Below, in pieces: positions 5,613 to 55,446 of a DNA stretch of 64,000 nucleotides. A program made the translations under genes and the position numbers. The notes beneath the pieces were generated by a model, which was not told where the DNA came from, searched no databases, and was given only the letters and a program-made list of their open reading frames with translations. Position 1 is the first letter of the stretch. Each line of letters begins with the position of its first letter. Origin of the DNA: Acidobacteriota bacterium (GTDB lineage Bacteria > Acidobacteriota > Blastocatellia > RBC074); the NCBI GenBank assembly GCA_016196035.1, contig JACPYM010000135.1:1-64000 (forward strand). The letters run 5' to 3'.

Positions 5613-5721
5613 CTAGTACTCCATCAAGCTGAAAATGAGGGATGTAGGGCGGGATTTAATCCCGCCCTACATCCCGGATGCGCTCTCAGCATCCATCACT
5701 TACAGCTTGATGGAGTACTAG
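5613..5721. mobile_element. 109-bp miniature inverted-repeat element, copy 1
   Basis: The element begins CTAGTACTCCATCAAGCTG and ends with its exact 19-bp complement. Inside is a near-perfect stem (GGGATGTAGGGCGGGAT and complement, about 5639-5675) and a smaller GGATGC/GCATCC stem. It is base-for-base identical to 21,194-21,302. CTAG at both ends could be a target duplication. It has no coding capacity. It looks like a MITE- or REP-type element moved by a transposase encoded elsewhere. It lies 24 bp from the stop of the decayed isomerase remnant. Confidence 0.85.
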
Positions 5722-11801: not shown

Positions 11802-13085
11802 TCAGGACGCCACGGCGCGTTTGGGTACGAGTTTCACCAACAACAGTGCGGCTACAAACGCGATCACCGAAGCGCCAAACACGGCGGTGAAGCCCGCGCT
11901 GTAATCACCCGCCGCTTGGGCCAGTTTGCCGGTCAGGAAATTGCCCAGCGCGCCGCCGACCGTTTCGACGACGGTGATGACGCCGAGGATGCGGCCTAGT
12001 TCGCGCAGCCCGAAACATTCGGCCACCATCAATTGCACCAACACGAACGCGCCGCCGTAACCAAACCCAAAGGCCAGCGCAAAGGGATACGCCGAAGCCG
12101 CCGTCAGGCTCAGCAACAAAGTGCCGGCCAGACAAAGCACGCCGCAACAGATCAGGTTGATCCAGACTTTGGGGAAACGGTCGCTGAGCCAGCCGAAACC
12201 CAGCTTGCCCACGATGCTGGCCGCGCCCATCGTGGATTGAATGTTGGCTGTCGCGGTTAACGACAAGCCCACGCGCGGGCTTTGCAAAAAGAGATTCAAT
12301 TGCTGCACGACGGCCAGAATTGAATAAAAGGCCGTCGCCGCACACAGCGAGAAAACATAAAACATCGGCGTGCGCAGCGCTTCGCCCAAGGTCAGACCGG
12401 GCAAGTTGGCGGGTACGTCTGTGGGCGCAACCGTTGCGCTGTCGTTCGTACCTGGCGCAGCGCCATCCGGCTCCAACCCAAGCTCACGCGGATGCACCTG
12501 CACGATCAGCCAAATGGCGGGGAGCAAAACAAACCAGATGAGCATGCTCACCGCCAGCATGGCGACGCGCCAGTTGTATTTTTCGATCAGCGGGCGTGCC
12601 AGTTGCGGAATCAGGATGCCGCCCAGGCTGGTGCCCATCACCACCAATCCCAGCGCGGAACCGCGTTGCCGTTTGAACCAATTCGAGATGAGCCAGGTGT
12701 TGGGGATGAGGGCGCTAAAGCTCAACCCCAGCCCGAGCAAAATGTGCGCCAGGTAAATCTGTGTGGGGTTGTGGGCGCGTGAGTAAATAAACAGACCGAT
12801 GCCCATCGCCACACAGCCAAAGCTCATCAACCCCCGCAGATTGACGCGGCCCAGCAAGTTGCCCGACAGCGATGACAAACCGCCCGAAATCAGGAAGGTC
12901 AGCATCGTGGCCGTCCCGATCACCGAACGATCCGTAATGCCCAAATCGGTCAGCAGCGGTTTGAAAAAGACCGGCAAACCGCCGATCGCCAGGCCGTTGG
13001 TGACGAGCATCGCCAGCGTAGAGACAGCGACGATCAGCCAGCCATAGAAAAATTTGGCGCCCTCGCGCGTGGTGGTTTGCGCCAT
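11802..13085 (-). CDS. Major facilitator superfamily transporter
   Basis: 427 residues with about 12 hydrophobic segments. The FFYGWLIVAVSTLAMLV opening and SGGLSSLSGNLLGRVNLRGL loop recall the oxalate/formate or monocarboxylate branch of the MFS. The central cytoplasmic loop (about residues 200-225) is polar. The start at 13,085 is preferred because GAGGA precedes it by 8 nt; an upstream Met at 13,100 overlaps that site. It lies downstream of the hydantoinase-like and nucleotidyltransferase genes, with a hairpin spacer between. A role importing the small acid or amide degraded by the cluster is plausible but inferred. Confidence 0.85.
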   Translation of the reverse strand: MAQTTTREGAKFFYGWLIVAVSTLAMLVTNGLAIGGLPVFFKPLLTDLGITDRSVIGTATMLTFLISGGLSSLSGNLLGRVNLRGLMSFGCVAMGIGLFIYSRAHNPTQIYLAHILLGLGLSFSALIPNTWLISNWFKRQRGSALGLVVMGTSLGGILIPQLARPLIEKYNWRVAMLAVSMLIWFVLLPAIWLIVQVHPRELGLEPDGAAPGTNDSATVAPTDVPANLPGLTLGEALRTPMFYVFSLCAATAFYSILAVVQQLNLFLQSPRVGLSLTATANIQSTMGAASIVGKLGFGWLSDRFPKVWINLICCGVLCLAGTLLLSLTAASAYPFALAFGFGYGGAFVLVQLMVAECFGLRELGRILGVITVVETVGGALGNFLTGKLAQAAGDYSAGFTAVFGASVIAFVAALLLVKLVPKRAVAS

Positions 13086-13133
13086 TGCGTCTGTCCTCAT
13101 TGTCGGTTTAGTTGAATGCGAGAGGCCGCCAAA

Positions 13134-13323
13134 GGCAGGGCTTTTGCAAAGTCCTCAAAACATCCGCCAAAGACCTTTGACTGACTCCTGATGCCTGACT
13201 CCTGATTCCTGGCAAATTGAAAATCAGCCGGTATGCTCAGTTTGTCAGGAATCAGGAACCGGGCATCAGGAGTCAGTCAAACCGTTCGAGCGCTCGCGCT
13301 GGCGGCTTTGCAAAAGCCCTGCC
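13134..13323. repeat. Nested heptamer-repeat hairpin
   Basis: Outer arms 13,134-13,151 and 13,306-13,323 are perfect 18-bp complements. Inner arms (13,176-13,212 and 13,245-13,281) pair over about 37 nt with four mismatches. The inner arm consists of 7-nt words TGACTCC, TGATGCC, TGACTCC, TGATTCC. It occupies the spacer between the 56-residue gene (ends 13,340) and the MFS start (13,085). Confidence 0.8.
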
Positions 13324-13339
13324 GCCAAAGGTGTCTGCT

Positions 13340-13510
13340 TCAGGTTGGCCTTGACAACACCTGCTTGCCCGTTGCTGCCGCCGCGGCGCGCCGTTCCGCT
13401 TGCGCCAGTTTGGCGCGACGCAACGACAGGCAGAGTTGCCGCAGTTGCTCGACGCGGCGCAAGCGTGTATCTACAGCTTTTGGTGTCATCTCAACTTTGG
13501 GTTCAGTCAT
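13340..13510 (-). CDS. 56-residue protein coupled to nucleotidyltransferase
   Basis: The reading frame starts at 13,510 with MTEPKVEMTPKAVDTRL and continues with RRVEQLRQLCLSLRRAKLAQ, ending KQVLSRPT. Its ATG overlaps the stop of the nucleotidyltransferase as ATGA (13,507-13,510), the usual sign of translational coupling. It is strongly basic and predicted helical. I do not recognise a named family. The tight overlap suggests a functional partner of the nucleotidyltransferase (antitoxin, cofactor or substrate), but nothing in the sequence decides this. Confidence 0.65.
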   Translation of the reverse strand: MTEPKVEMTPKAVDTRLRRVEQLRQLCLSLRRAKLAQAERRAAAAATGKQVLSRPT

Positions 13511-13977
13511 TGCGTTTGTCCTTCCAGCCGGACCAGCCGGGCGATGTCGTCCAGGTCTTGCCCGCTCCCGCGCAAACGTTTCAAGGCGATCAAGCCGGCG
13601 CGCGAGACTACCGTAATTTCTGTGTCAGCCCAAGCCAATGTCTCACGCTGTTGCCAGACTTGGCTTAACTGCTCCGTCACCAGCAGCAAATCAAGCACCA
13701 GCACGTCGCCGGTGTCCGGGTCCGGTTTGGAGACGCGCTGGATTTTGACCGCGCCTTGCGCAAAGGTCATCGGCTTGGCCGAAAAGATGTAGCCTTGCGT
13801 GCGCGCCAACTCCAACACGTCGCCCAACGCTTCAGGCGGAATCAGCAAATCTATGTCCAGCGTGGCGCGCGGTTGATCGTGAATCGCCACGGCCAAGCCG
13901 CCGCACACGGCATACGGGATGCCGCGCTCGTACAAAGCGCGCGCGAGGTTTTTTAGTTCGTCGTAAAGACTCAGCAT
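13507..13977 (-). CDS. Nucleotidyltransferase-fold protein
   Basis: 156 residues. YAVCGGLAVAIHDQPRATLDIDLLIPP contains the GG...(D)xD core of the DNA polymerase beta-like nucleotidyltransferase superfamily. A later DLLLV segment may supply a third acidic position. The C-terminal part is helical (RAGLIALKRLRGSGQDLDDIARL), as in AbiEii/MNT-type and 'nucleotidyl transferase' toxin-related proteins. The start at 13,977 has GGAG 6 nt upstream; a longer frame from 14,046 lies inside the preceding gene and is not supported. It sits 13 bp after the hydantoinase-like gene and overlaps the following 56-residue gene by 4 bp. Substrate unknown. Confidence 0.75.
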   Translation of the reverse strand: MLSLYDELKNLARALYERGIPYAVCGGLAVAIHDQPRATLDIDLLIPPEALGDVLELARTQGYIFSAKPMTFAQGAVKIQRVSKPDPDTGDVLVLDLLLVTEQLSQVWQQRETLAWADTEITVVSRAGLIALKRLRGSGQDLDDIARLVRLEGQTQ

Positions 13978-13990
13978 ACTTCGCTCCGCA

Positions 13991-15466
13991 CTATTCGCCC
14001 GCGTGCAACGCCACCGGGCGTTTGATGAACTCGCCGATTTTATCATCGCTGACCTTGCCGCCGGCGAATTTCACGTGGCCGCGCACGATAGTGTGCGTCG
14101 GCCAGCCTTTGGTCATGAAGCCCTCAAACGGTGTGTGATCCTGCGCCGATTGACAAAGCTCCGCCGTGATCGGTTGTTCCTTCTCCATATCCACGATGGC
14201 GAAATCGGCGTCGCTGCCGATGGCGAGGGCGCCCTTGCGCGGATAGAGGCCGAAGTTGCGCGCCGGGTTGGCGCTGACCAGTTCGGCCACGCGCGCCAGA
14301 CTGATGCCGCGTTTGTGGCAGCCTTCGCTGAGCAGCACCGGATACAGGATTGAAGCGCCGCCGAAACCGGGCAGGCTGCCCCATAAATCATCTTTGTGTT
14401 TGTGCTCTTCGCCGCAACAAGCGTGGTCGCTGACCACGGTGTCCACCGCGCCGTTCTGGATGCCTTCCCAAAGGAATTCGGAATGCTCGCGCGTGCGGAT
14501 GGGCGGATTCACTTTGCCCCGAATGTTATTGAAGCCGCCGTGGCCACTGCGGTCGAGTTCTTCGTGATCGAGCGCGAGGTGGTGCAACGTGGTTTCCAGC
14601 TTGATGTCGTGCGCGGGATATTGCCGCCGCACGTCAAGGCCGGCTTGCAAGGCGTCGCGCGAAGACAGGTGCAGCAAATTGATCGGACAGCCGGTCGCAT
14701 CGGCCAGGATGGCGGCTTCGTGCACGGAGAGGCGTTCTGTTAGCGGCGGGCGGCCTTCGCTGTAGGCTTTCAGCCCCGTCAAACCTTGCTGTTTGGCGCG
14801 TTCGATAAACACGCGGATGAGTTCGGGATTTTCGCAATGCAGCGAGAGCGAGATGCGCGCTTTGTCTTTGTGCTTGGCGGCCATCTGCGCGACGCGCGTC
14901 ATCAGTTCGTAAAGATGGCCGAGGTCGTAATTTTCGGCCATCGTGTACGCGCTGCCTTTGGTCGAACTCGCCGCCAGATTCAGCGCCTTGTAAAACATAT
15001 AAAACTTGAACGAACCGACCCCGGCCTGTTCGACCAGCCAGGCGACTTCGTCGAGTTGCGCCGCCGTCATCACCGCGATGTGGTAGCTGTAATCGGTGTG
15101 AAAGTGGCCGGTCGAAAGCGACAGCACTTCGGGCAAGAGGTCTTTGTACAGGCCGGTCTTGTTCAGGTAATGCTGCCCGGTGCGCCAATAACTGATGAGC
15201 GTCGAAACGCCGCCGACCAGCGCCGAACGCGATTCGCTTTCGGCGTCTTCGCTATGCGGGCGATAGATGCCGACGTGGAAGTGCGAATCCACCGCGCCGG
15301 GAAAAACATATTTGCCGCGCGCGTCAATGACTTCGCTCGCCGCGCTGGCGGCAATGTCGTCGGCGATGGCGGCAATTTTGCCGTTGCGCACGCCGATGTC
15401 ACATCTGACTGTGCCGTGATAGGGGAAAACTGCGGTGCCGTTTTTGATGAGTAAGTCGTAGCGCAT
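13991..15466 (-). CDS. Dihydropyrimidinase/hydantoinase-like amidohydrolase
   Basis: 491 residues, a typical length for hydantoinase/dihydropyrimidinase. The complete binuclear metal set can be read: H62 and H64 (DSHFH), K154 (GSFKFYMFYK, the expected carboxylated lysine), H210 (SLHCENPE), H266 (LLHLSSR) and D347 (VVSDHAC). The C-terminal beta-domain is present (KGALAIGSDADFAIVD). The family hydrolyses cyclic amides (dihydropyrimidines, hydantoins, dihydroorotate, allantoin). The exact substrate is not settled, but the intact site argues for an active enzyme. The start at 15,466 lies just below a heptamer-repeat spacer. Confidence 0.88.
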   Translation of the reverse strand: MRYDLLIKNGTAVFPYHGTVRCDIGVRNGKIAAIADDIAASAASEVIDARGKYVFPGAVDSHFHVGIYRPHSEDAESESRSALVGGVSTLISYWRTGQHYLNKTGLYKDLLPEVLSLSTGHFHTDYSYHIAVMTAAQLDEVAWLVEQAGVGSFKFYMFYKALNLAASSTKGSAYTMAENYDLGHLYELMTRVAQMAAKHKDKARISLSLHCENPELIRVFIERAKQQGLTGLKAYSEGRPPLTERLSVHEAAILADATGCPINLLHLSSRDALQAGLDVRRQYPAHDIKLETTLHHLALDHEELDRSGHGGFNNIRGKVNPPIRTREHSEFLWEGIQNGAVDTVVSDHACCGEEHKHKDDLWGSLPGFGGASILYPVLLSEGCHKRGISLARVAELVSANPARNFGLYPRKGALAIGSDADFAIVDMEKEQPITAELCQSAQDHTPFEGFMTKGWPTHTIVRGHVKFAGGKVSDDKIGEFIKRPVALHAGE

Positions 15467-15471
15467 AGGAT

Positions 15472-15590
15472 TCAGACTTCAGACCTCAGACCTCAGACCT
15501 CAGACCTCAGACCTCAAACTACTGACCTTCGGTTTGCTTGCTACGCAAAGAATCAAAAGTCTGAAGTCTGAAGTCTGAAGTCTGAAGTCT
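15472..15590. repeat. TCAGACC / AGTCTGA heptamer hairpin
   Basis: Seven tandem 7-nt units (TCAGACT, five TCAGACC, TCAAACT) run 15,472-15,520. The complementary unit AGTCTGA occurs 4.7 times at 15,558-15,590. The right arm runs into the stop codon of the GntR/UTRA gene (15,589-15,591). The left arm ends 6 bp before the start of the hydantoinase-like gene. The whole spacer is therefore one hairpin in the transcript. Confidence 0.85.
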
Positions 15591-16374
15591 ATTTCTTCCG
15601 TGGTTTTTTGCCGTCCTGCCCGTCGCGTGTCAGATAGACCGAGTAGCAGTACAAATCGCTGCGATACAGCACGTGCACATATTCAACCGGCTTGCCTTCG
15701 TTGGTGTACACGGTGCGTTCGATGCAGAGCAGCGCGGAGCCTACGCGGACGTCGAGTAGCCCGGCGACATAAGGTTCAGCCAGCGCCGCCGTGATTTGCT
15801 GTTTGGCGTCTTTGAGCCGGAGGCCGAATTTCTTTTCGAGCAATTGCATCAACGCGCCCGCACTCAGGTCTTCGCGCGTCAGCCGCGCGCCAACTTCGGC
15901 AGGCAAATAATTCACGATAAAGCTGTACGGTTTGCCTTCGAGCGAACGCAACCGCTTGATGCGGTAAATAGGTGCGCCCGGCTGCAACCCCAGCAACTCG
16001 GCTTCGTGCCTGTCGGCCTCGATGCGATTCATCTCGATGACTTTGACCGGCGTATCCCGGCCCATCGCGATGACCTCGTCGAGCGAACCGGTCAGGTGTG
16101 TTTGGCCCTCGAAGGTGCGGCGCCGGGTGCGGCGTTCGGCGACGAAGGTACCACGGCCCTGGCGGCGATCAATCAAACCTTCATCCGCCAGCGCGGTCAA
16201 CGCCTGGCGCACCGTGATGCGGCTGACGCCATATTGCTGAATCAATTCGCTCTCGGTCGGCAGCCGGTCACCCGCGACAAACTTGCCCGAAGTGATCGTT
16301 TCGCGCAGCAAATTCTCTAACTGGTAGTAGAGCGGGATGCGCTTGCTGACAAAGGCGCTGCTGGGCTTGGTCAT
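15589..16374 (-). CDS. GntR-family regulator, HutC/UTRA type
   Basis: 261 residues: an N-terminal winged helix (PLYYQLENLLRETITSGKF; LPTESELIQQYGVSRITVRQ; DEGLIDRRQGRGTFV) and a C-terminal UTRA ligand-binding domain (PIYRIKRLRSLEGKPYSFIV; CIERTVYTNEGKPVEYVHVL). HutC-type regulators are usually local repressors relieved by a pathway intermediate, so control of the surrounding hydantoinase, cupin, amidohydrolase and ligase genes is likely. The start MTKPSSAF at 16,374 is chosen because the frame upstream is only translated heptamer repeat (reading QLPTANC repeatedly). No good ribosome site is visible. Confidence 0.9.
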   Translation of the reverse strand: MTKPSSAFVSKRIPLYYQLENLLRETITSGKFVAGDRLPTESELIQQYGVSRITVRQALTALADEGLIDRRQGRGTFVAERRTRRRTFEGQTHLTGSLDEVIAMGRDTPVKVIEMNRIEADRHEAELLGLQPGAPIYRIKRLRSLEGKPYSFIVNYLPAEVGARLTREDLSAGALMQLLEKKFGLRLKDAKQQITAALAEPYVAGLLDVRVGSALLCIERTVYTNEGKPVEYVHVLYRSDLYCYSVYLTRDGQDGKKPRKK

Positions 16375-16381
16375 AGTGAGT

Positions 16382-16468
16382 AGTTGGCAGTTGGCAGTTG
16401 GCAGTTGGCAGTTGGCAGTTGGCAGTTGGCGGTGAACCAATGCTTGCCGCATCAGCCAACTGCCAACT
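16382..16468. repeat. AGTTGGC x7 / GCCAACT x2 heptamer hairpin
   Basis: Seven perfect AGTTGGC units fill 16,382-16,430. Two complementary GCCAACT units lie at 16,455-16,468, overlapping the cupin stop codon (16,467-16,469). The tandem block ends 8 bp before the GntR/UTRA start. The layout matches 15,472-15,590, but the word differs. Confidence 0.85.
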
Positions 16469-17408
16469 ATTTATGTTTGTGTTTACGCAGTCCGCCTAGC
16501 GCGTCTAGGTGCGCGTGGTCGAAGCCCTCACTGTCTTCTGGAAATTCAAAGTCGTTGAAATGAATATGATTGTGATCGGTGGCGATGATCCACTTGTGCA
16601 ATTCAGGCTTTTGCCGTGTCAGACGCGCGGCAGCGCGGTCGGCGTTTTCTTCCGGCGTAGACCAGGGGTTCCAGTGGAAGTGGTTATGCAATTCGCCATC
16701 GGTGCGACCAAAGGCCAGCACGCCATGTTCGCTGGCAAACGCGCCGTGGTTGATATAGGCCGGGCGATAGAAATAGCCGCCCGTCGGCAGTTCGCCAAAT
16801 TGCATCATCCACGACGTGCCGTAGATGTGATAGGCCTCTTCCGAACAATCGTGGTACGAGATGTTGTCCTGCCAGAAACCGGGCACCATCGAATAGAGGA
16901 ACGTCATCGCGTGCGTCTTCTCGTCAAAGCGTAGCAGCTTGAGCAAACAACCCGACGCCGTTTGCGGGAAGAGCGTCGGCACCTGCCAGGGCATGTCTTC
17001 GTAAGATTGAATCTTGATGAATTGCTCGCGCTCAGCGCCCGCGATGTCCTCGTCCGATTCGACCAGATGCGGCTCGGTTTCGTTGTACATCAACAGGCAG
17101 AGCGCGCCTTTCGGGCTGGTGAGCGCGGGCAGCGAGACGCCTTTGGGTACGAAGAAATAATAGCCGGGGCCGCATAGTTGCTCGCCGACTTGCAGGCCGC
17201 CTTCCATCACCAGCAACTCGACGTCGGAGTAACACACGGTGGGCGGCTGGTGGTAACCGGCTTCGTATTGCACGGTCATCGAGCATGCGCCGGTGTCGCC
17301 GTCAATGCTCAGCATCTTGTAGTGCATGCCCAACGGAAAGCCGGGCAGGGTCATCTTTTTGAATCCGACCTCGCGGTCAACAAAGGGTTCGATATGCGGG
17401 CGGGCCAT
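16467..17408 (-). CDS. Bicupin-like protein
   Basis: 313 residues. The first half carries a cupin-like strand pattern (VCYSDVELLVMEGGLQVG...GPGYYFFVPKGV). The second half has a second such unit and many histidines near its end (GELHNHFHWNP, TDHNHIHFNDFEF) that could bind a metal. I do not recognise the subfamily; ChrR-like and homogentisate-type cupins are possibilities. A much longer frame runs upstream to 17,849, but it overlaps the Uma2 gene. The Met at 17,408 (MARPHIEPFVDREVGFKK) has AAGGAG upstream and is the evident start. It sits between Uma2 (26 bp upstream) and the GntR/UTRA gene in the catabolic cluster. A dioxygenase or isomerase role on a ring-cleavage intermediate is a guess. Confidence 0.75.
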   Translation of the reverse strand: MARPHIEPFVDREVGFKKMTLPGFPLGMHYKMLSIDGDTGACSMTVQYEAGYHQPPTVCYSDVELLVMEGGLQVGEQLCGPGYYFFVPKGVSLPALTSPKGALCLLMYNETEPHLVESDEDIAGAEREQFIKIQSYEDMPWQVPTLFPQTASGCLLKLLRFDEKTHAMTFLYSMVPGFWQDNISYHDCSEEAYHIYGTSWMMQFGELPTGGYFYRPAYINHGAFASEHGVLAFGRTDGELHNHFHWNPWSTPEENADRAAARLTRQKPELHKWIIATDHNHIHFNDFEFPEDSEGFDHAHLDALGGLRKHKHK

Positions 17409-21193: not shown

Positions 21194-21302
21194 CTAGTAC
21201 TCCATCAAGCTGAAAATGAGGGATGTAGGGCGGGATTTAATCCCGCCCTACATCCCGGATGCGCTCTCAGCATCCATCACTTACAGCTTGATGGAGTACT
21301 AG
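21194..21302. mobile_element. 109-bp miniature inverted-repeat element, copy 2
   Basis: Identical over all 109 bases to 5613-5721, including CTAG at both ends and the 19-bp terminal complements. It lies 47 bp upstream of the acyl-CoA ligase start, where it could influence transcription of the catabolic cluster. Flanking bases outside CTAG differ from copy 1, as expected for independent insertion. Confidence 0.85.
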
Positions 21303-29994: not shown

Positions 29995-30047
29995 AGGGCA
30001 GTGGATATTAGCCGGTGGTTTCACCACCGGCTAATATCCACTGCCCT
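29995..30047. repeat. Perfect 25-bp hairpin
   Basis: A 25-bp perfect stem with loop TTC (29,995-30,019 and 30,023-30,047) lies 57 bp after the BNR gene. It could terminate transcription, but no T-run follows. Eighteen bases of one arm (GGATATTAGCCGGTGGTT) recur at 33,073-33,090, which points to a dispersed repeat. Confidence 0.75.
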
Positions 30048-32870: not shown

Positions 32871-33030
32871 TCTAAATCAGAACAACAAAGATGGGGACAG
32901 GATTCACAGGATTCACAGGATTGGCCGAAGGTCAATTCTGCCCGTCCTGCTGGCTGAATCCTGTGAATCCTGAAAATCCTGTGAATCCTGGCAAAAAACT
33001 TCTGCCCCAATGTTGGTTGCTCTGATTTAG
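32871..33030. repeat. 160-bp imperfect hairpin with 9-nt repeats
   Basis: Outer arms CTAAATCAGA...TGGGG (32,871-32,896) and its near-complement (33,005-33,030) enclose tandem CACAGGATT words (about 32,897-32,922) and their complements (about 32,955-32,991). The terminal word CTAAATCAGAACAACCAA recurs at 63,019-63,036. It occupies most of the spacer between the anti-sigma and receptor genes. Beyond it, 33,073-33,090 repeats part of the hairpin at 30,003-30,020. Confidence 0.75.
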
Positions 33031-55255: not shown

Positions 55256-55446
55256 CTATCTGTTCAGTCCCAACGGGGCGCGATATGATAGCCCGGTGCA
55301 ACGCACCGGGTGAGCGCGTAGAGATTTGCCAAGCCCCAACGGGGCGCAATAGTTATGTCGCCCCGTTGGGGCTTGCTTGATTTGACGGCCTGTTCCCAGG
55401 GCGATGCCCTGGGCTTCATTATGACGCCCCGTTGGGGCTGAGCAAT
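55256..55446. repeat. Cluster of CCCCGTTGGGG-type palindromic repeats
   Basis: The spacer contains CCCAACGGGGCG words and their complements at about 55,268, 55,334, 55,360 and 55,424, with further small hairpins (GCCCGGTGCAACGCACCGGG near 55,291; CCCAGGGCGATGCCCTGGG near 55,396). It fills the gap between the MBL gene and the small orphan gene. It is non-coding. Confidence 0.75.

Follow-up and report, generated by a model that had tools for sequence, protein, structure and literature searches.

Inverted heptamer arrays with a fixed outward polarity in the gene spacers of a Blastocatellia genome

How do hairpins built from tandem seven-nucleotide words come to stand between the genes of a single run, alike in layout and different in sequence? 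Intergenic heptamer arrays have been reported piecemeal from several phyla, and there is no agreement on their origin. We addressed the question in a window of 64,000 nt, which makes up most of contig C135 (64.8 kb) of a Blastocatellia MAG of 9.59 Mb (97% complete, 139 contigs). The relatives of this genome are Blastocatellia/Pyrinomonadaceae-type Acidobacteriota MAGs, and Acido-Lenti-1 RNAs are present in it. The minus-strand run comprises genes for an MFS transporter (11802-13100; Pfam MFS_1, E=1e-42), a small ORF, a nucleotidyltransferase-like ORF, an amidohydrolase/hydantoinase-like protein (13991-15466; Pfam Amidohydro_1, E=2e-14, with relatives in named Acidobacteriota/Pyrinomonadaceae MAGs), a GntR/UTRA regulator (15589-16374; Pfam UTRA and GntR), a cupin-type protein (16467-17408; profile match to DUF4437/Cupin_7), Uma2 and a further amidohydrolase. 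Gene edges were taken from a purpose-made codon-usage ORF caller, in which stops are firm and starts approximate. A longer GntR start at 16452 was rejected because it would read through the array of the adjoining spacer. The nucleotidyltransferase-like ORF and the small ORF (~13343-13512) together occupy 13343-13980, between the hydantoinase and MFS genes; both are absent from the corresponding locus of a sister species (L021), where these two genes lie ~30 nt apart, and they are possibly an inserted toxin-antitoxin-like pair.

An earlier note on this DNA had described three successive spacers of one design, each with its own word: a tandem heptamer array followed by the complementary words. 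TRF, inverted-repeat detection and the sequence itself bore out this description for spacers 2 and 3. Specifically, spacer 2 (15471-15590) holds TCAGACC x6.4 at 15472-15516, within a plus-strand 5' arm of 15471-15516 that was also found by the array scan and as inverted repeat I6, and then AAGTCTG x4.9 at 15557-15590 (plus strand; TRF, array scan, sequence). In spacer 3 (16382-16469), seven perfect copies of AGTTGGC at 16382-16430 (plus strand; TRF, sequence) are followed by GCCAACTGCCAACTA at 16455-16469 (plus strand; inverted repeat I23, sequence). Both spacers are fitted closely between their genes: on the minus strand the outermost repeat unit shares bases with the TAG stop of the gene upstream, and 4 or 7 nt separate the other arm from the next ATG. 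In spacer 2 these are the GntR stop at 15589-15591 and the hydantoinase-like ATG at 15464-15466 (4 nt), and in spacer 3 the cupin stop at 16467-16469 and the GntR ATG at 16372-16374 (7 nt). Transcripts of the two spacers are predicted to fold into single long hairpins of -68.8 and -41.7 kcal/mol. A scan for intrinsic terminators with loops of 3-8 nt found none at the three spacers, and no T run follows the stems; an Rfam search likewise returned no known RNA family there. Neither a target site duplication (TSD) nor a conserved core was found at spacers 2 and 3.

Spacer 1 (13.1-13.3 kb), which had been assigned to the same design, proved to be of another kind. It is a 186-bp MITE at 13136-13321, identified by its terminal inverted repeats (TIRs), its TSD and its dispersed copies, and the TGACTCC-type words (TGACTCC, TGATGCC and TGATTCC, ~13177-13281) are degenerate heptamers of its inner sequence. 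The TIR CAGGGCTTTTGCAAA is present at both ends with 0 mismatches, and identical 10-bp duplications CCGCCAAAGG lie at 13126-13135 and 13322-13331. When 13100-13345 was used as a DNA query against the genome, it matched ~40 places with up to 97% identity, and the 19 best other copies showed 84-97% identity. The aligned copies have the ends CAGGGCTTTTGCAAAG...CTTTGCAAAAGCCCTG in common, diverge sharply outside them, and differ in length in steps of 7 and 21 nt. Within the 2.37 Mb (~25%) of the genome that we sampled, four other copies (L009, L071, L072 and L134) are flanked by exact 10-bp TSDs of their own, and a search for an autonomous partner found no IS-sized end pair with a matching TSD. 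With many dispersed copies and no transposase gene, spacer 1 is a clear-cut mobile case, a true MITE whose internal palindrome also consists of heptamers, of degenerate CTGACTC/CTGATTC type. The three spacers can be called successive only if one passes over the two junctions, very short or overlapping, that lie between spacer 1 and spacer 2.

A second palindromic repeat, CTAGTACTCCATCAAGCTG..., occurs in identical copies at 5613-5721 and 21194-21302 and as 34 BLAST pieces in the sample; it is probably another MITE family.

A wider search for tandem 7-mers with inverted partners showed that the architecture of spacers 2 and 3 is a genome-wide rule. The 2.37-Mb sample contained 121 period-7 arrays of at least 3 copies, while between 0 and 9 arrays were found at each of the periods 4-6, 8-13 and 15-21, and 12 at period 14, which is twice 7. 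Since not one such period-7 array was found in ~0.6 Mb of Markov-shuffled sequence, chance is excluded as their source. Extrapolation to the whole genome gives about 400-500 arrays: because the sample was partly picked for AGTTGGC arrays, the figure was derived both from the whole sample (~490) and from a 374-kb subset picked otherwise (~411). Equal frequency inside genes, which the earlier note had named as a refuting outcome, was not observed: coding sequence was called over 77% of the sample, yet the midpoints of 101 of the 121 arrays are intergenic. Of 99 intergenic arrays, 55 are no more than 7 nt from a gene edge, where uniform placement would give 19. An inverted partner of the same word within 250 bp was found for 62 of the 121 arrays, where permutation of the words led us to expect 3.9 (maximum 11 in 200 permutations); direct partners of the same word (5 arrays) did not exceed their permutation expectation of 3.9. 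These arrays form 40 distinct convergent inverted pairs, and a weak inverted partner was detected for a further 18 of 42 unpaired intergenic arrays, against one or none for control words. At least 10 words recur, most of them without GGG. The words of the spacers therefore do differ, as had been noted, but they are sampled from this lexicon and are not one to a spacer.

Arrays called inside ORFs (L013, L015, L041, L060 and L093) are mostly AATCCGC, a word with no stop codon in any frame, and some ORF calls containing it may merely run through a spacer array. In another spacer (L053:4445-4684) a palindromic repeat lies in the loop between AATGCGG-type and AATCCGC arrays; it is dispersed, with BLAST finding 247 pieces of it in the sample, so that repeats are nested within one spacer.

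Short tandem repeats can be mis-assembled, and a MAG in 139 contigs might be thought to suffer from it. However, the arrays measure only ~20-70 bp and have unique flanks, the same architecture is present in independent assemblies of 7 genera, and an orthologous sister spacer carries an array of another word. An assembly artefact, which the earlier note had named as a way in which its observation could fail, is for these reasons a practically negligible explanation.

The strongest regularity was absent from that note: a fixed outward polarity of the arrays at gene edges. Because an inverted pair reads alike on both strands, the orientation of the word in its 5' arm is a well-defined property of the pair. 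TCAGTRG, GGCRGTT, TCAGACY, GCGGATT, GTGAAAA, GATGCTA and CTAGGGG were always found in the 5' arm, and 36 of 37 nearest-word comparisons agreed in polarity. Within 30 nt of gene edges outward exceeded inward orientation by 65 to 4 (39:4 at stops, 26:0 at starts). Word orientation was defined from the pairs, which makes the unpaired arrays an independent test, and among arrays without a called partner the ratio was 28:2. This means that each word has one fixed polarity, with the same strand reading out of the gene at stop and start edges alike. The rule extends beyond this species: among 147 genomes of the class, the paired motif [CAGTRGT]2-N8-38-[ACYACTG]2 occurred in 7 genomes of 7 genera (27 loci listed) and its opposite polarity in none. 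A corresponding search with a second word in 297 genomes was uninformative, as neither polarity gave a match, even in the word's own genome. Published orientation biases in Xanthomonas and Nostoc (PMC4692102) and in Beggiatoaceae (PMC4679880) may, by analogy, be the same outward rule. Random slippage does not predict strict polarity, and the rule can be tested in any genome that bears such arrays; if general, it would point to a shared mechanism of array birth.

That a shared word keeps one polarity is consistent with descent by copying. We tentatively favour the reading that spacers 2 and 3 belong to a class of dispersed, palindromic intergenic repeats with heptamer arrays for arms, copied with their polarity and altered by slippage in 7-nt steps, and we consider it quite possible, if short of probable. 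The loops set a limit to it. In this genome they are unrelated even among pairs of one word (within-family 11.8, between-family 12.3); 27 of 32 are unique, and 0 of 36 loop pairs are related. Moreover, a direct repeat of at least 6 nt flanks 0 of 39 heptamer pairs, which together with the unrelated loops argues against simple recent transposition. Simple recent copying of whole elements likewise fails to explain words that recur nearly perfectly beside unrelated loops. Internal palindromes were no more pronounced in the loops than in control intergenic DNA (mean z -0.60 and -0.55). In another genus (G121) the loops of different copies are clearly related: 15 of 21 pairs score higher than the 99% level obtained by shuffling.

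Unrelated loops are what one would expect if each spacer had acquired its hairpin by local mutation, with replication slippage building an array, snap-back template switching adding the mirror arm, and no copying between loci. The copy-number changes in 7-nt steps agree with this, as does the drifting apart of the two arms of array pairs in dialect. It receives further support from a sister genome (G001; coding DNA ~75% identical), in which the GntR-hydantoinase spacer and the ortholog of L115:5463 are short and empty of arrays, ~13 and 27 nt where the present genome holds hairpins of ~100 nt. Nevertheless, local mutation should yield random words in random polarity. Instead, many loci share the same few words, and a strict polarity holds both inside this genome and across 7 genera. 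Both observations argue against independent slippage at each locus, and we regard a purely local origin as improbable.

Other sister spacers are not empty. The ortholog of L053:6145 has an inverted array of another word (TAGTGGC/GCCACTA), in that of L053:5162 AAAAGTG forms the array where this genome has TCAGACT, and the cupin-GntR spacer of the sister (L021) has a short hairpin of a related word. From these sequence comparisons, arrays appear to come and go between sister species, with words turning over in both arms together. Abundance of a word varies as well: three copies of CTGACTA gave 274 overlapping matches here and 0 in the sister, and a further genome, G013, had 1275. Since G013 lacks the tight paired form, heptamer arrays need not be paired.

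Hairpins placed so exactly between genes could also be functional intercistronic RNA structures, which would either bring a stop codon near the next start and thereby allow re-initiation, or protect the upstream cistron from decay and set operon stoichiometry. The stop and start codons at the stem foot in spacers 2 and 3 are consistent with this, and so are the two sister spacers that keep an inverted array with a different word and a short hairpin, respectively. Furthermore, a Shine-Dalgarno-like core precedes only 1 of the 20 genes with a start within 12 nt of an array, compared with 31% of genes, which suggests that such starts need another route of being read, although an array at the Shine-Dalgarno position by itself accounts for part of the deficit. 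The sole test of selection at the RNA level gave no sign of it, as arm mismatches had no bias towards G:U compatibility in the mRNA sense (6.5 versus 5.8; 10:10 pairs). The sister lacks arrays in two orthologous spacers, and inverted pairs occur between convergent and divergent genes too. We consider selection for an RNA hairpin unlikely as the reason why the arms are kept, but a serious contender. If the polarity rule is general, many operon junctions in array-bearing genomes would bear strong hairpins without a Shine-Dalgarno site.

The polarity itself would be best explained by templated repeat addition: after a break in a spacer, a heptamer word would be added enzymatically to each of the two 3' ends before they are joined. 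Such a process would produce inverted arms whose word always points out of the gene and is usually G-rich, as it is at telomeres, and it predicts outward polarity, shared words beside unrelated loops, a change of word between species and the lack of TSDs. Some bacterial reverse transcriptases do copy an RNA template into tandem-repeat DNA, exemplified by DRT10 with 9-nt repeats (PMC12632851), and the genome has 5 RVT_1 matches. On the other hand, loops of 8-86 nt are unexpected from simple end joining, and no RNA that could serve as template for these words was found. Two genomes of 98-100% completeness (G012 and G023) bear arrays or pairs without an RVT_1 match, and a dependence of the arrays on a reverse transcriptase was rejected on this ground. 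Templated addition is accordingly very improbable. It is a similarly long shot that the outward polarity is the footprint of template-directed writing of a lineage-specific 7-nt word onto both 3' break ends in spacers, a telomerase-like repair scar that Acidobacteriota, Xanthomonas, cyanobacteria and Beggiatoaceae would have in common.

Under the favoured dispersal reading, the hairpin unit or its arms would be copied with polarity into spacers in the manner of REPINs or MITEs, but without target duplication. Replication slippage in 7-nt steps might thereafter lengthen or shorten the arms and let them drift, and the loop, being unconstrained, would turn over. Insertions would be tolerated mainly where they fall between the stop of one gene and the start of the following one, which would leave the arrays abutting both. 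Transcript hairpins of ~-69 and -42 kcal/mol would probably slow 3'-to-5' decay or uncouple cistrons as a by-product. The weakest link of this reading is how arms could spread without their loops, and no element or enzyme that moves the arrays was identified.

The earlier note was right to connect the arrays with cyanobacterial STRR sequences, but the inverted pairing, for which it could name no type, has a published precedent. Xanthomonas (Xcc and Xac) has GGGAATC heptamers with 70-75 convergent inverted pairs per genome, and Nostoc/Anabaena has GGGGA(C/T)T repeats; GGGAATC-type repeats are spread genome-wide, ~90% intergenic, near gene ends and variable in length between species (PMC4692102). 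The arrays described here resemble them in their tandem 7-nt unit, genome-wide and intergenic distribution, proximity to gene ends and convergent inverted pairs. However, Xanthomonas uses one G-rich word that forms quadruplexes, and 83% of the Xcc repeats have a counterpart at the corresponding position in Xac (PMC4692102), whereas here there are at least 10 words, most without G-tracts, and several sister spacers are empty or other-worded. Lacking one dominant G-tract word, the class of spacers 2 and 3 is a variant and not the same family. The kind is thus already known; the word lexicon, the strict polarity and the word turnover are new.

TAACTGA direct repeats of Beggiatoaceae, cyanobacteria and Bacteroidetes offer a second comparison: a CTGA-type word lies directly before starts, in some species its reverse lies after stops, and close relatives of some Bacteroidetes have shorter spacers without repeats (PMC4679880). 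Like these and the cyanobacterial STRRs, our heptamers lie within short spacers, but the TAACTGA repeats are mostly single direct arrays of the one word studied, with one inverted case in the Guaymas genome. REPINs, which are REP doublets that form hairpins with conserved 16-mer arms and are tied to RAYT transposases (PMC3116915), are also inverted, extragenic and dispersed, with conserved arms and a less conserved spacer. The class of spacers 2 and 3 has their inverted doublet of fixed polarity and variable spacer, but its arms are tandem heptamers in place of a conserved REP 16-mer, and a crude motif scan detected no RAYT-like HUH motif in 2.37 of 9.59 Mb. As to MITEs, spacer 1 fits in its TIRs, TSD, many copies and absence of a gene, in contrast to spacers 2 and 3.

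Other palindromic sequences are present in the window. Its only Rfam matches, two Acido-Lenti-1 RNAs (RF01687) at 78-124 and 55395-55439, lie in or beside larger palindromic repeat regions, and a perfect 25-bp inverted repeat with a 3-nt loop at 29995-30047 is single-copy in the sample. An analogue of the heptamer hairpins is built from 9-nt words at 32872-33030, where ACAGGATTC x2.9 (32897-32922) is followed by the inverted TGAATCCTG x4 (32955-32990), all within an outer inverted repeat CTAAATCAGAAC...; the sample holds one 73% relative (L001:2462).
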